Part shown: positions 13,604-20,663 of the stretch, piece by piece
Layout of the letters: every line of letters begins with the position of its first letter
How positions within the stretch are numbered: position 1 is the stretch's first letter
Virus record (IMG/VR): IMGVR_UViG_3300036766_000436
Location: 1-36,680 of that record
Source of the DNA: a virus
Strand: one strand, 5' to 3'
DNA length: 36,680 bases
Translations under genes and position numbers: made by a program
The notes under the pieces: generated by a model
Databases searched by the model: none
The model's input: the letters and a program-made list of their open reading frames with translations, nothing else
Told to the model about the DNA's origin: nothing

Positions 13604-16444
13604 TTACGCTGTTGAGGTTGCTCTCTGTAGAGTAATCGTAGCCAATACGAAGTCAATACCTTCGACGAGCTTAACGACAACAGAGATGTTGATCGTATTT
13701 CCAACGATCTGAACAACTAGCTGCTTATAGCCGTTAGGAGCATCAGAGGTAGATACCGTAATACCTTGAGCTAGATAACCAGTCAAGATAGAGTCACAAG
13801 AACTCTTTACGGCGGCAGCCGAAACCGTGTTCTTTACGCCGATATATAGAGCTTCAAGTTGATTACGGAAATCATATTGAAGAACGTCGGCAGCATATTG
13901 AACGTGGGCACGGTTAAATACCCAATTCCCATCAGCACCGTAAGTTGTATTGTCCACAACAAGACGGAAGCCACCAGTTTGAGGATGCTCCCAGAAGGTG
14001 ATACCGTTCTGGATGGCGTCTTCGTACTGAGTACCAGGATTGAAGTCCATGACGATCTGTACTTCAGGCGTAGTCATAGCCTGTGCGGTCTGGCGAATAC
14101 CCGACATGTTGAAGAACTTGTGGGTCATTGGCAAACCTACTGGTGCACCGCCGCGAGCGCCGGCTAGCAAGCAAGCTCCAGCCCATGGCATGAACCACTG
14201 CAATCCGCCCTGCGAGTTAACCTGACGAATGTCCTGAATAACAAGTTGGCAGCGTGAAGAGGCTAAGTTCTGAGACTCAATCTTACAGTTTAGATATGTG
14301 TCCTTGAGAGATAGATATCCTTGACGTTCAGATCTCGCCTTCGTAGTTGCCATCAAGCTAAGATGTGTCTTAACGGCTTGATGAATACCAAGAATGGTGT
14401 AGTTAGAGCTTCCGTCAGTAAGACCATCGATGATGTCTGCTGCAGCGTCTCTCGAGAAGAGAGGAACTACAGAGTTAACACGGATTGCCTGAAACTGTGA
14501 AAGTGCATTAGCGATGTCTGCCGTAGACGTGGCGCCAAGTGTTCCACCGGTGAGGTATTGTTCTGCGGCTGCAGCTGGAAGACCAACTATGCCTTGTCCA
14601 GATGTCTGGATGAGTGAAGCCATAGAAGACTGAGCGAAGAACTGAGCAACCTCATAGGCATCTTTAACGATCTGAGCAGGCATGTCACCTGTATATGCTG
14701 ACATGGCACCCAAGTTTGTTACCTTATCAAGCACTGAAGTAGGAAGTTGTCCGAAGAGTGTGCTTCCAAGTGCAGCAGACCAGAATCCGCCAGTGCTTGA
14801 ATTAATGAACGCAACCAATTGAGCAACGGTGCCAAAATCAGCTAGGTTCATGGAATATTCAGTTACAGAGTTGTTGATAAGCAAGATCTGCGTTGCGTTG
14901 ATGGTTACCTTAGGAGCAACTCCACCAGCACCAAAACGACCAAGCTTGAGGACAACGTTTCCGCCGACCACACCAGACTCATCTATAAGATCGCGCTTGT
15001 TGGAAAGCGTAATCATTGCTTGATTCTCTGAACTAGATACGACAAGACCAATAGGAATGTTGAATCTACCATTTCCAGATCCCAGCAAAGATCCGCTTAC
15101 AAGTTCGAAATTACCAGAGCTCACCATAGAGATAGTTAGGTCTGCTGCAGCTTCGGAAAGTCCGCCAACAATAAAGTTAATACCGCTTGGAAGACCGCCA
15201 GACCAGTTAGCACCGTTACTTAGTGCAGCCTGAAGAGCGGCACGCGTGACAATGGGACCAGGAACCGTGAAGGTGTTAATAGTTGCAGCGCCGTTTAAGC
15301 GAAGAACTAATGTTCCACCAGCTGAAAGAATCATTCCAGGTGAGAATCCAGTTACAGTTCCTGTTGGACTTGAACCTACTTCACCGTTAATAACGCTACC
15401 AGCAAAGAGAGTAACGGCTGCTGAAGCCAAGATACCGAAACTTGCTGCTGCACCTAACTGACTTGACATCTGTGCATTAACGACAGCAGCAGCACTCAAC
15501 GTTACTGCGGCACCAAGAGCAATCATACTTCCGTTAACAGTGCCACCCATTGTATCTGTGATACTTGTCGTAGCGATGATGTTACCATTGAATACGCCAG
15601 CGGTACCTACATTTATAGTTGCCGTAGAACCAATAAGCCAGAATACGTTAGAAGCTAGTACGCCACCAGATAGTGTAATAGTTGGCATGCCACCAGCACC
15701 AGTTGTTAACGTGCTTGGTGTCTTAAACACAAACACATCAGAAGCTGAACCAGTAAGGGTTAACGTTCCAGGGCCAGATTGTGCTAAGTTTACATCGCCA
15801 GGTGCAAATGTATAGTTACCCGCTGATAAACTTTGTCCATCGAGTACGTTAGGAATCGTAGAGAAACTTAAACCAGCTAAAGAGACGTAAGCAGCAGCGG
15901 CATCAACTTGAGCAGCTTGAGATTCCGCATCGTTTAGATGTGGAGCACCAACGCCGCCAGAAAAATAACCGCTAGACAAATCAAACGTCGCAGAAGAAGC
16001 TTCTGAAGCAGGAGAAGCTGGAACAAGAACATTTTTATATGTAATCTTGTTACCGCCAGTACCCCACTCAAGAGCTTGCACTGTTCCAAAGTTGCTTGCG
16101 ATCGCTAGCGATGCGCGAGCAGAAGCATTCGTCTTGTAGATATATACTGCTTGAGCTCCACCAGGAAGTGCGCCATCAGCGCCAGGTGCGAACAAGAAGT
16201 TGCATGCATCAACAAGTGGTCCGCTACCATAAATACTGCGGATCATTGGAAGTTGATCTGGTGAAAATACGTTTTGCGAAAGATCAGGAACCTGAGATCC
16301 AGGAGGACCTGCTAACGATTCGCCGAATATTGCGATGAGGCCAGTTGGGCTCAGAGGAAATCCACCGCCAAGGTCGATTAGCTCTCTAGAGTAAGCGCCT
16401 GGCTTGTAAATTGTAGCTCCATTAAATGATACATTGATTGCCAT
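13604..16444 (-). CDS. Tail sheath protein with an inserted ice-binding-like (DUF3494) domain
   Basis: A 946-residue contractile sheath protein, much longer than the roughly 350-700 residues usual for sheaths. The start (YKPGAYSRE, then LSPTGLIAIFGES) and the C-terminal 230 residues (SRCQLVIQDIRQVNSQGG, WFMPWAGACLLAGARGG, GNWVFNRAHVQYAADVL) are typical sheath. Residues about 170-370 match the DUF3494 ice-binding/adhesin beta-helix, but with the family's N-terminal block placed last. Residues 375-560 are beta-rich domains with LQAAL/WSGGLPSG elements. TAGGAG gives a strong ribosome site, a TATAAT box lies 33 nt upstream, and a terminator follows. The insertion probably sits on the outer sheath surface. 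Confidence 0.88.
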   Translation of the reverse strand: MAINVSFNGATIYKPGAYSRELIDLGGGFPLSPTGLIAIFGESLAGPPGSQVPDLSQNVFSPDQLPMIRSIYGSGPLVDACNFLFAPGADGALPGGAQAVYIYKTNASARASLAIASNFGTVQALEWGTGGNKITYKNVLVPASPASEASSATFDLSSGYFSGGVGAPHLNDAESQAAQVDAAAAYVSLAGLSFSTIPNVLDGQSLSAGNYTFAPGDVNLAQSGPGTLTLTGSASDVFVFKTPSTLTTGAGGMPTITLSGGVLASNVFWLIGSTATINVGTAGVFNGNIIATTSITDTMGGTVNGSMIALGAAVTLSAAAVVNAQMSSQLGAAASFGILASAAVTLFAGSVINGEVGSSPTGTVTGFSPGMILSAGGTLVLRLNGAATINTFTVPGPIVTRAALQAALSNGANWSGGLPSGINFIVGGLSEAAADLTISMVSSGNFELVSGSLLGSGNGRFNIPIGLVVSSSENQAMITLSNKRDLIDESGVVGGNVVLKLGRFGAGGVAPKVTINATQILLINNSVTEYSMNLADFGTVAQLVAFINSSTGGFWSAALGSTLFGQLPTSVLDKVTNLGAMSAYTGDMPAQIVKDAYEVAQFFAQSSMASLIQTSGQGIVGLPAAAAEQYLTGGTLGATSTADIANALSQFQAIRVNSVVPLFSRDAAADIIDGLTDGSSNYTILGIHQAVKTHLSLMATTKARSERQGYLSLKDTYLNCKIESQNLASSRCQLVIQDIRQVNSQGGLQWFMPWAGACLLAGARGGAPVGLPMTHKFFNMSGIRQTAQAMTTPEVQIVMDFNPGTQYEDAIQNGITFWEHPQTGGFRLVVDNTTYGADGNWVFNRAHVQYAADVLQYDFRNQLEALYIGVKNTVSAAAVKSSCDSILTGYLAQGITVSTSDAPNGYKQLVVQIVGNTINISVVVKLVEGIDFVLATITLQRATSTA
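15335..15937 (-). other. Circularly permuted DUF3494-like beta-helix domain within the sheath
   Basis: This covers sheath residues about 170-370. The order is: helix with AAQVDAAAAYVSLAG (177-191), LDGQSLSAGNYTF (201-213), DVFVFKTPSTLTTGAG (236-251), SNVFWLIGSTATINVG (265-280), FNGNIIATTSI plus GTVNGSMIALGAAVTL (285-316), then LGAAASFGILASAAVT (330-345) and TGTVTGFSPG (361-370). In ordinary DUF3494 proteins the LGxAxxFxxLA and TVTGFxPG blocks come first and the AAQxD helix follows them. Here they come last, so the normal N- and C-termini are joined near residue 328. Basis: motif recall, not alignment. Confidence 0.78.
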
Positions 16445-17506: not shown

Positions 17507-17983
17507 TTACACCCTATTTCCCTTAATTATGTTGTCTCTAGCAGGAAGATGTTGTAGATTCCACGGCGTATGCAATCCGCTGACATTTTCACCCTGTAAT
17601 GGAACTACGTGATCTACATGATAACCTTCTGGGCACGACTCATACATATATTTAATTTGATCCCAATGTTCCTCAGTGAGCCATTTAGGGGTGGCATTCA
17701 ACTTTGCTGCCCTTCTCTTTGCTTCCTTAAAATTATGCTCTTCAGGATGCTTTTTAAACCAATCGTGATTGTTGCACTGAGTTGAACAGTATTTGGTAGA
17801 TATCTTTTGAGCCGCAAAAACAGTATTACATACTGCGCATGACTTTTCTAAGTTAACAGACGCCTTTCTATTAGCATTTTTCTTCTGGTACCAACAATGG
17901 TTAGAGCAAAAATTACCAGGACAGTGGCTATTCCACTCTTTCTGACACCGTAAACATTTGTTTTGATACTTACTTTTATACAT
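17507..17983 (-). CDS. HNH homing-type endonuclease
   Basis: A 158-residue HNH nuclease. The N-terminal half has two Cys clusters (CLRCQ...CSNHC and CAVCN...CSTQC) that probably bind zinc. The C-terminal half has the nuclease core: YHVDHVVPLQG, GLHTPWNLQHL and NIIKGNR. A KLNATPKWL block just before the core is shared with the HNH gene at 18610. I place the start at ATG 17983, just after the upstream TGA (TGATATG), with GAAGAAGG as ribosome site; an ATG at 18001 would add six residues inside the previous gene. Such free-standing nucleases usually spread themselves between phages and have no virion role. Confidence 0.85.
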   Translation of the reverse strand: MYKSKYQNKCLRCQKEWNSHCPGNFCSNHCWYQKKNANRKASVNLEKSCAVCNTVFAAQKISTKYCSTQCNNHDWFKKHPEEHNFKEAKRRAAKLNATPKWLTEEHWDQIKYMYESCPEGYHVDHVVPLQGENVSGLHTPWNLQHLPARDNIIKGNRV

Positions 17984-17984
17984 A

Positions 17985-18617
17985 TCAAAACCCTTCTTCA
18001 TAACTTCTAATGATGTCTCTAACTATGCTGTCCATAGTTCTCACTAGTTCATTATTTATGGAACGCATCTCCTGAGAGAAATCTTTAGTTTGAACAGGCT
18101 TAACCCATTGAGTACTTGCATCTTGCTTACTGGTCGCTGTGCGAAACTTTGATTCCTTAGGACTTACAGAGCTATATTGCTTCTTAGCACTTTCAATGCG
18201 CTCAGCGTTTATCTTCTTCATTGCGTCATAGATATTGGTGGACACTTTAGGTCTATTGCCGCTAGGTCCTCCAACTGGAATTATTTTATATACTCCGCTG
18301 CCATCCTTCATGGGCTTAGCGTTCTGCAGGAGACGTGACAACATCGGATATGGTGGCTCTGTAAACTCCATGTTGCCTGACTCTGTTGTTAACTCCATAT
18401 TGACGTTGTCCATCTGAAGTTCATTTATGAACTCAGCTGAACGCTTCTCGACACCAGACTCAATGGCTAGCTGCATAGCCGCTTCTGCTTGCTGCGTAAA
18501 CGCAGCATTGATCTCGCGACTAGCATTGCTCACTATAGTCTCAACGCTACTTGAATCCAATCCCTTATTCCTAAGGGTGTATCTTAATTGTTCTAGTTCG
18601 AAAAGAATGTTAGGCAT
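17985..18617 (-). CDS. Unknown virion-operon protein
   Basis: A 210-residue protein, helical in residues 1-75 (LFELEQLRYTLRNKGL, INAAFTQQAEAAMQLAIESG). It has a Gly/Pro-containing middle (SGVYKIIPVGGPSGNRP) and a C-terminal helix (MRSINNELVRTMDSIVRDII). It lies between two HNH genes in the head-to-tail part of the operon. It overlaps the upstream HNH stop by 8 nt, and AAGGGAAA precedes ATG 18617. No family is recognised. A neck or connector-associated role is only a guess from position. Confidence 0.65.
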   Translation of the reverse strand: MPNILFELEQLRYTLRNKGLDSSSVETIVSNASREINAAFTQQAEAAMQLAIESGVEKRSAEFINELQMDNVNMELTTESGNMEFTEPPYPMLSRLLQNAKPMKDGSGVYKIIPVGGPSGNRPKVSTNIYDAMKKINAERIESAKKQYSSVSPKESKFRTATSKQDASTQWVKPVQTKDFSQEMRSINNELVRTMDSIVRDIIRSYEEGF

Positions 18618-19122
18618 TGCGATTTCCCTTACTACAATTTTCAGAAATCGTCAAATATTGCAAATTCCAGGGTACGTGAAGTCCTCTTACTTCTTTACCT
18701 TGTAGTGGCACTATATGATCTACGTGGCAAATCTTAGGTCTATTTTTATAAAACAACTCTATAGCTATTTTTTGTTCATCATTTAACCACTTAGGTGTTG
18801 CCGTTAGTTTAGAGGCTCTATATTGAGCAGATATTTTTGCTTTCTTATGTGGATTATTTTTAGCCCAATTAGCACTAACCTTTTTAGCTCTATCTTTGTT
18901 GTTTTGATACCAAGCTTTATTTTTTGCTAATGTTTTTTCTCTAGGTATGGAAGCTATACGAGCTCTTACCTTTTCCTTTTCTAATTGATACCTATTGGCA
19001 GAATACTCTTTATGTTTATTGCTCCATTTACGTGTATACATTACACGTCTATGTCTTTGACAATAGACTCCTCTTGTTCTTTTGCTTAACTCTGCTGTGC
19101 AACCCTCGAATGTGCAAGTCAT
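18610..19122 (-). CDS. HNH homing-type endonuclease
   Basis: A 170-residue nuclease related to the one at 17507. The N-terminus has a Cys/His cluster (CTFEGCTAEL, then YCQRHRR), followed by a long Lys-rich helix with YQNNKDRAKKVSANW. The core is KLTATPKWL, HVDHIVPLQG, GLHVPWNLQYL and NCSKGNR. It overlaps the Nudix gene by ATGA upstream and the next gene by 8 nt downstream, so insertion left both neighbours intact. GAAGGAAAA gives the ribosome site. It differs from the other copy in its N-terminal DNA-binding half, suggesting a different target. Confidence 0.85.
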   Translation of the reverse strand: MTCTFEGCTAELSKRTRGVYCQRHRRVMYTRKWSNKHKEYSANRYQLEKEKVRARIASIPREKTLAKNKAWYQNNKDRAKKVSANWAKNNPHKKAKISAQYRASKLTATPKWLNDEQKIAIELFYKNRPKICHVDHIVPLQGKEVRGLHVPWNLQYLTISENCSKGNRNA

Positions 19123-20663
19123 TTTTCCTTCTTACCGAGGGCTTTTACCCTAAGATCTTTAAGGAAGTTTTCCTTCTCAAGATCCTGCCAATCATGGGCA
19201 AACGTTATAGTAATCTTACCGCTGGGTGATATCTCTATCTTAGGCTTGCTAAGATACGAGTAATACTCATCGTGAACCTTATCCTTGTTTGCAGGATTAG
19301 CAGAGAAGGCTTCCACTACTTGCGGACCTTTATCTACATCTTCGATTTTGTTTTGAAGTTCTCTTAATTTTGACTCAAGTTCGTCTATGTCTTTACCCAC
19401 AGATTCCACTAGATGATTGTGCTTGCCGGTGATGTCGTGCATCACTGTTTCAAGTTTGTCAAATAAACCCATTATCCTTGATTCAACTTGCTGAAGATCC
19501 ACTGCCATCCCATTGCGAAGTTGCTCACGTATGGTTTCCATCTCTTCGTATATGTCGCCGATATTGTGTCTTTTATAATTTTCAATAAGCGTATTTAGAC
19601 CACCATGAATAGCGTCGTCAGAGATTCCATCGTCGTATAGGGCGTGAAGTTCCTTCTCATCTTCTGGAAGATACCATTCAAAGACGCTCATTAGGGCGGC
19701 AGTGAGTTCAGGAAGAGACTTGTTTGTGAATTGGTATACGGTTTTATGCCCATCGTTGAGTCTACCAGAGTAGACGTCGTTCATATGTTTCCTAATACTT
19801 AGGACGTGCGTGTCGATATGAACGTCTTTAAAATCTTCGTCGCCCATACCCTTTACGATAGAGCGAAGAGTTCTAAACATGCCGTTACCAACCAGCTTGA
19901 GAGCATCGCCGTGCGTTACCTCAAATACAGCGTCGCCTTTCTGGCGGATAATGTTTTTTTCTAAAGTTTCTAAGGCAATCATGCCCTTGAGGGATTTACC
20001 AAATCTTTTTGCTACGAATTCTTTAATGGGTTTCTTGCAGCAGTCACGAAGTTTATCCCAAGGAATCTGGTCTAGCTCATACCATTTCCAATCGGTCATG
20101 GATTCGTAACCCTTGTCACTCTTAGTACTCTTAGGTTTACCGCTTACGATCTCTGCCAGATATACAACTGTCTCGTTACTATCGGTTGTGCCTCTGAAGA
20201 TCTCAGTGGACAATCTACCAACCACACCTGCTTCTTCGTGAAGTTCTCTAAGTGCAGCTTGCTCAAAGCCTTCGTTGTTTTCTAAATGTCCACCAGGGAA
20301 AGCTAGTCCGCCCTTGTTGTGGGTTCCAAGCAGAATTCTATTGTGCTGGTCCATAATCATGGTGGCAGCGCACTTACCCTTTATCTTCTTCTCAAGATAT
20401 TCGTCAAAAGCTTTCTTTAAGTCCTTCTTGGACTTCTTTCTCTTTATGCGATCTTCTTTCACTTTTTCCTTGGCTGCTGCGTGATGCTTCTCGCCCCACG
20501 TGCCGCCTCTATCTTCGTGCTTTGAATCAGGAGCATCCTTACCAGGACTGGTATATTTGGCCGCAACCGACTTTGGGGGACGACCACGCGGTCCGTCCTT
20601 CACGTTACCGTGAACGATGGCCATCATCATGCGATATTGTCTTCTAGAGACCGCTTGTGGCAT
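19119..20663 (-). CDS. Nudix hydrolase-domain protein of the virion operon
   Basis: A 514-residue protein with three parts. Residues 1-90 are very basic (GRPPKSVAAKYT, GGTWGEKHHAAAKEK). Residues 95-225 are a Nudix domain with a complete Nudix box at 125-147 (GHLENNE, then REL and EEAGV, fitting GX5EX7REUXEEXGU), so it should bind divalent metal and cleave a nucleoside diphosphate-linked substrate. Residues 240-514 are helical, with a likely coiled coil at 385-450 (a MGLFDKLETVMHDI to LESKLRELQNKI stretch). No frameshift is seen. Placement among connector and tail genes suggests a packaged or structural enzyme; the substrate is unknown. TATAAT lies 33 nt before ATG 20663. Confidence 0.75.
   Translation of the reverse strand: MPQAVSRRQYRMMMAIVHGNVKDGPRGRPPKSVAAKYTSPGKDAPDSKHEDRGGTWGEKHHAAAKEKVKEDRIKRKKSKKDLKKAFDEYLEKKIKGKCAATMIMDQHNRILLGTHNKGGLAFPGGHLENNEGFEQAALRELHEEAGVVGRLSTEIFRGTTDSNETVVYLAEIVSGKPKSTKSDKGYESMTDWKWYELDQIPWDKLRDCCKKPIKEFVAKRFGKSLKGMIALETLEKNIIRQKGDAVFEVTHGDALKLVGNGMFRTLRSIVKGMGDEDFKDVHIDTHVLSIRKHMNDVYSGRLNDGHKTVYQFTNKSLPELTAALMSVFEWYLPEDEKELHALYDDGISDDAIHGGLNTLIENYKRHNIGDIYEEMETIREQLRNGMAVDLQQVESRIMGLFDKLETVMHDITGKHNHLVESVGKDIDELESKLRELQNKIEDVDKGPQVVEAFSANPANKDKVHDEYYSYLSKPKIEISPSGKITITFAHDWQDLEKENFLKDLRVKALGKKEK

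Follow-up and report, generated by a model that had tools for sequence, protein, structure and literature searches.

A contractile tail sheath gene in the 36,680-nt metagenomic virus record IMGVR_UViG_3300036766_000436 (the whole stretch analysed here, hereafter the window) raises two questions: why a sheath should contain a domain known from ice-binding proteins, and why the two blocks of that domain should stand in reversed order. The gene is a single open frame of 946 codons at 13604-16444 on the minus strand, on which all sheath features given below also lie. Residues 517-944 of its product matched the tail sheath core (PHROG 279, E 7.8e-31), and a Foldseek search with the predicted structure retrieved the phi812 sheath (8q1i_O, E 8.6e-21, TMt 0.54) as well as several other sheaths, identifying the protein as the contractile tail sheath of an uncultured bacterial virus. 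Ahead of this main core match, residues 159-377 form an insert with a third-codon GC of 0.26, compared with 0.40 for the remaining gene, which fits an acquired piece. We propose, with a probability of about one in two, that this insert is a virion-surface adhesion module, most likely ice-binding, made of a permuted DUF3494 domain set in a hairpin loop of the sheath and travelling as a mobile cassette.

Two other genes of the window are worth recording. An HNH/endonuclease VII-like gene at 17507-18001 on the minus strand (PHROG 1271, E 6.5e-10), probably a homing endonuclease, lies between two structural genes that adjoin each other in loci L003 and L005. The structural module also encodes a 514-aa protein with a NUDIX hydrolase domain (19119-20663, minus strand; PF00293, E 4.1e-14), apparent homologues of which, of similar size, occupy the same place in L003 and L005.

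A circularly permuted DUF3494 domain in the tail sheath

Searches against Pfam-A assigned the insert to the Ice_binding family (PF11999, DUF3494) with an E-value of 3.7e-28 and 99.1 bits, against a curated cut-off of 28.7. The match came in two pieces, the main one placing sheath residues 166-321 on profile positions 48-207 and the second placing residues ~338-395 (15260-15433) on positions 1-58 (E 1.9e-4), so that the end of the profile precedes its start. Separate HMMs for the two blocks found the C-block at residues 169-321 (E 1e-71) followed by the N-block at 330-370 (E 8e-18), and the solved ice-binding proteins 7bwx, 6eio, 6bg8 and 8x1p aligned to the sheath in the same two swapped pieces. 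The canonical order of N-block then C-block is therefore absent, and residues ~159-377 are confirmed as a circularly permuted variant rather than a canonical member of DUF3494. A reading of the sequence alone had proposed a DUF3494 domain at 15335-15937 (residues 170-370), permuted by a cut just before the A-A-Q-x-D helix, and would have been refuted by a profile search without a DUF3494 match; identity, cut point and coordinates were all borne out.

The whole insert (~219 aa, 15314-15970) comprises the permuted unit and short linkers, together filling a hairpin loop within an accessory domain of the sheath. The unit proper covers residues ~168-370 (15335-15943) and opens with the block that is normally second (residues 169-321, 15482-15940), consisting of a long helix and then strands b2 to b6. 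In the AlphaFold2 model this helix (residues 173-190, 15875-15928) is now the first element of the domain; strand b4, STATIN (residues 273-278, 15611-15628), was located by alignment to 7bwx. The old C-terminus is joined to the old N-terminus by a new linker, VNAQMSSQ (residues 322-329, 15458-15481), which in the alignment has related, NAQxSPLL-like counterparts in other permuted copies. The normally first block follows (residues 330-370, 15335-15457), running from LGAAASFGILA to TVTGFSPG, and the host domain resumes with the sheath strand TLVLRLNG (residues 378-385, 15290-15313).

Structure prediction, proposed earlier as a check, returned a beta-helix with a long helix. The full-length sheath protein, modelled with AlphaFold2 together with 58 sheaths, had a mean pLDDT of 85, with the insert mostly at 86-97, and within the same model that matched the phi812 sheath Foldseek also detected ice-binding 6eio (rmsd 1.8 Å over 154 columns). 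Modelled alone with 16 permuted relatives, the domain formed one compact unit (pLDDT 94.3, pTM 0.91) for which only ice-binding (DUF3494) proteins in the PDB gave convincing E-values; the comparison with 7bwx (TMq 0.65, rmsd 1.9 Å, 165 columns) showed the discontinuous beta-helix braced by a long alpha-helix. In a library of viral models there was no convincing phage match to the domain, the best three being DUF3494 proteins of a giant virus. Because Foldseek aligns sequentially, the structural comparison covers the C-block only, and the packing of the N-block, expected to be on the last C-terminal coil, rests on the confident AlphaFold2 model without a permutation-aware superposition.

The geometry of the canonical fold offers a rationale for the permutation. 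The sheet order of AnpIBP is loop-b1-b6-b5-b4-b3-b2 (PMC7277481), and since b1 lies beside b6, joining b6 to b1 gives an unbroken helix b2-b3-b4-b5-b6-b1. Opening the chain before the long helix would, as inferred from the published structure, let the new ends meet at the cap beside the long helix, an arrangement suited to insertion into a loop. The swapped order could also arise without true permutation, if the N-block were left over from a second tandem copy since lost, with blocks exchanged between adjacent subunits so that they complete each other. Tandem duplication is the usual route to circular permutation, and the tandem ice-binding protein 5uyt aligned to the domain over 253 columns, longer than one domain, as expected if the C-block and the next N-block are matched together. 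We nevertheless consider such swapping very improbable, given that the monomer was modelled as one compact domain (pLDDT 94, pTM 0.91) and that block HMMs found no upstream N-block beside any permuted copy.

Sheaths lacking the insert locate its boundaries. The 732-aa sheath of L003, ~65-68% identical to that of the window (68% over the whole alignment), lacks precisely the insert and continues at the insertion site as FDLTVGGVGTSNLVVKVNG, where the window has FDLSSGYF, the insert and TLVLRLNG. Insertion into a sheath loop, as the sequence-only reading had suggested, is thus supported by a relative that reads straight through the site, and the full-length model agrees. The sheath nearest to the window's, in L038 (73% identical), is also without the insert. 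The site itself varies: in window-type sheaths the domain stands before the LVLRLNG strand, and in L006, L012 and L020 after the corresponding strand. An 809-aa sheath nested among the carriers (L098:1751-4177) has no DUF3494 domain and bears another insert of ~75 aa near residues 115-190. The sheath of Myxococcus phage Mx1 (L004:8001-10862), the only cultured phage sheath that matched the window's, contains, in the corresponding region, a different large insert that includes two related repeats.

Distribution and mobility of the permuted unit

We scanned viral contigs from several seeds, namely the window protein, the domain by itself, the sheath, and the L007 protein either complete or as its C-terminal part; these scans were pattern-based and biased towards the queries, so that copy counts are lower bounds and not frequencies. 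The phage loci recovered contained 28 distinct permuted and 71 distinct normal-order DUF3494 copies. The window is a metagenomic virus record, for which an artefact of assembly or gene calling might be suspected, but this explanation is already refuted, since phage contigs hold 28 distinct permuted copies, every one of them within an open frame, which excludes chance or misassembly. A search of other sheaths for the same insert, also suggested beforehand, succeeded, as no fewer than 23 distinct sheaths of the window's family contain the permuted unit. The 28 copies divide into 23 in sheaths of this family and five in other virion-type proteins, namely a baseplate-J-like protein of 2417 aa (L009), one of 2288 aa in which a normal-order copy is also present (L227), a pair of 523-aa proteins in which chitobiase-C-type domains accompany the unit (L210 and L223) and a 349-aa protein encoded just after a likely major capsid gene (L007). 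Among the copies recovered, none in the window's sheath family was in normal order, an association with a Fisher p of 5e-18 that is only indicative because the copies are related by descent.

No permuted copy was found in 80 cellular loci, many of them from cold-living genera as judged by their titles; every classifiable copy was in normal order, some could not be classified, and one, in L130, was weakly matched by the N-block on either side. Cultured phages yielded little. In tblastn searches of 50,697 phage records, the window domain, the copies of L007, L024, L027 and L263 and a hand-typed generic DUF3494 consensus gave no match, and L250 gave only a marginal one to a tail fibre (E 0.08). 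No cultured phage record searched thus carries the domain convincingly, with the caveat that BLAST low-complexity filtering may hide some matches.

In two unrelated sheath families (L025:4738-7986 and L245:5233-8640) the DUF3494 domain keeps its normal order. A sheath can thus display the domain without permutation, and the hypothesis that sheaths accept permuted copies only was abandoned. These two families, apparently independent, indicate that contractile sheaths probably acquired DUF3494 on more than one occasion. Both orders can also occur together. A 171-kb contig (L012 and L013) and a 42-kb contig (L088 and L017) each combine a permuted copy in the sheath with one in normal order carried by a second, very large protein, and the 2288-aa protein of L227 (3742-10605) contains a normal-order copy at residues 799-947 and a permuted one at 1071-1194, possibly an intermediate of permutation. 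Neighbouring related genes, one without and one with a normal-order domain, were seen after a likely major capsid gene in L018 (5169-5540 and 5554-6966) and also in L015 (1357-2034 and 2042-3367). A contig scan with the C-terminal part of the L007 host protein found no relative other than itself; a likely insert-free homologue of this protein was found in L018.

The phylogenies suggest that the permuted unit is mobile. The domain was present in 14 of 67 distinct sheaths in the sheath tree, in a patchy distribution implying seven changes, at least four of them forced by well-supported branches. In the domain tree the window copy adjoined that of L005, the sheath of which is not sister to the window's. 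The window and L006 domains are 64% identical, compared with 40% for their sheaths, as expected of a cassette that moves, and they occupy different insertion sites. Taken with the trees, these comparisons suggest, at the level of sequence, that the unit probably moved ready-made between sheaths. Most phage copies of both orders fell into one well-supported group with the permuted copies nested among those in normal order, and the normal order is therefore likely to be ancestral. The permuted copy of L078 was placed with cellular copies and may represent a second permutation event; a single permuted clade was not rejected by the AU test (p 0.138), and one origin remains compatible with the data.

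The putative ice-binding face and its ligand

The ice-binding face was mapped by alignment from the published site of AnpIBP (7bwx) and not measured on coordinates. At the outward positions of the B-face, permuted copies had 95% T/S/A/G/N and no charged residues, with Thr at 91% of column-4 positions and at 100% in four of the five strands. Normal-order phage copies were close to this (94% T/S/A/G/N, 3% charged, 89% column-4 Thr), and cellular copies were less regular (77%, 10% and 58%, respectively). S273 and T276 of strand b4 correspond in the alignment to the AnpIBP residues S153 and T156; full ice-binding activity of AnpIBP depends on these two, and their change to tyrosine cuts it to 17% (PMC7277481). 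The flat, uncharged, Thr/Ser-rich face thus appears intact in the permuted copies, as far as aligned residues alone can tell, and its composition is the strongest argument for favouring ice rather than glycans as the ligand. DUF3494 is also present in organisms of temperate habitats (PMC12337378). In the absence of binding data, a Thr-rich flat face could recognize other ordered surfaces.

Extra Ig-like domains are common in sheaths and were proposed to bind cell-surface carbohydrate weakly (PMC9230969). By analogy with such domains on other virions, the permuted domain may be displayed for adhesion to something other than ice, such as host-surface glycans, plant or fungal polysaccharide or mineral particles. 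The presence of the domain in large baseplate and fibre-like proteins, and the chitobiase-C-type domains that accompany the copies of L210 and L223, lend this alternative some weight. A glycan-binding site normally relies on aromatic residues together with charged or amide groups. The face has neither charge nor aromatics and presents a regular Thr ladder, its regularity exceeding that of cellular copies, and we regard a non-ice ligand as possible but doubtful.

A structural spacer or tail stabilizer without any external ligand is less likely still. A role for additional sheath domains in cementing adjacent subunits to one another has been suggested (PMC9230969), but close sheath relatives manage without the domain, the permuted unit also occurs in baseplate-type and capsid-adjacent proteins, and the conserved pattern of the face is that of ice binders.

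We therefore return to an adhesion module with ice as its most likely ligand. The permuted unit would behave as a mobile cassette, transferred by phages from sheath to sheath and also into further kinds of virion protein, and every sheath subunit would display it on the tail exterior, giving multivalent surface adhesion. Outward placement is inferred from the position of additional domains in other sheaths (PMC9230969) and not from a model of the assembled tail; likewise, hundreds of copies per tail are assumed from general sheath architecture. With the ice-binding face intact, the most likely target in freezing soils would be ice, or ordered water at interfaces with ice and brine, although ice binding is untested. 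Several of the IMG datasets are probably from boreal or Arctic soils; the habitats of the contigs could not be verified. The benefit, also inferred, may be that virions are held where hosts concentrate or are protected through freeze-thaw.

Relation to known systems and implications

The domain resembles characterized DUF3494 proteins (AnpIBP, 7bwx; EfcIBP, 6eio; SfIBP, 6bg8) in its profile match, its predicted beta-helix with a long helix and its Thr/Ser face pattern, and differs in that its blocks are permuted and embedded in a virion protein, known members being secreted or part of a cell-surface adhesin. Like the phi812 sheath and the 112 contractile tail sheath proteins surveyed by Evseev et al. 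(2022), the window sheath has a conserved core with domains added in a variable region, but in the parts of that survey accessible to us the additions are mostly Ig-like beta-sandwiches, rarely mostly helical, with no mention of a beta-helix or ice-binding type (PMC9230969). Ig-like and Hoc-type phage display domains are likewise exchanged horizontally, present in many copies on the virion and proposed to act in adhesion, but they differ in fold and are not circularly permuted to fit a loop. The ice-binding domain of the Marinomonas primoryensis ice adhesin MpIBP, a bacterial RTX adhesin unlike the phage protein, is presumably not DUF3494. It offers a parallel as an ice-binding domain that serves as a surface anchor (PMC5014055). 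PF11999 genes on viral contigs of Arctic viromes were reported as auxiliary genes protecting the host; as far as the accessible text of that study goes, they were not reported as virion domains and block order was not discussed (PMC11515562). Our literature search found no paper joining DUF3494 with phage or ice-binding with a tail sheath, and the initial impression that no such sheath had been described holds for the literature searched. The domain family is thus known, and what is new is its permuted, mobile and presumably virion-displayed form.

Natural cases in which circular permutation helps to make a domain portable are seldom caught in progress. Because close relatives here show related domains in both block orders, inserted and not inserted, the steps of the route can be retraced. 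For protein engineers, the permuted unit, its two ends lying side by side, could also serve directly as an ice-binding insert. Tail sheaths are seldom regarded as adhesive surfaces. An ice-adhering phage, with hundreds of permuted ice-binding domains along its contractile tail supplied by a mobile, pre-permuted cassette for virion-protein loops, is a picture that we find plausible, though short of probable. If the face does bind ice, such virions would attach to ice in a manner analogous to the attachment of phages to mucus, and the structure of the virion would be linked, concretely and testably, to survival or host encounter in freezing soils.
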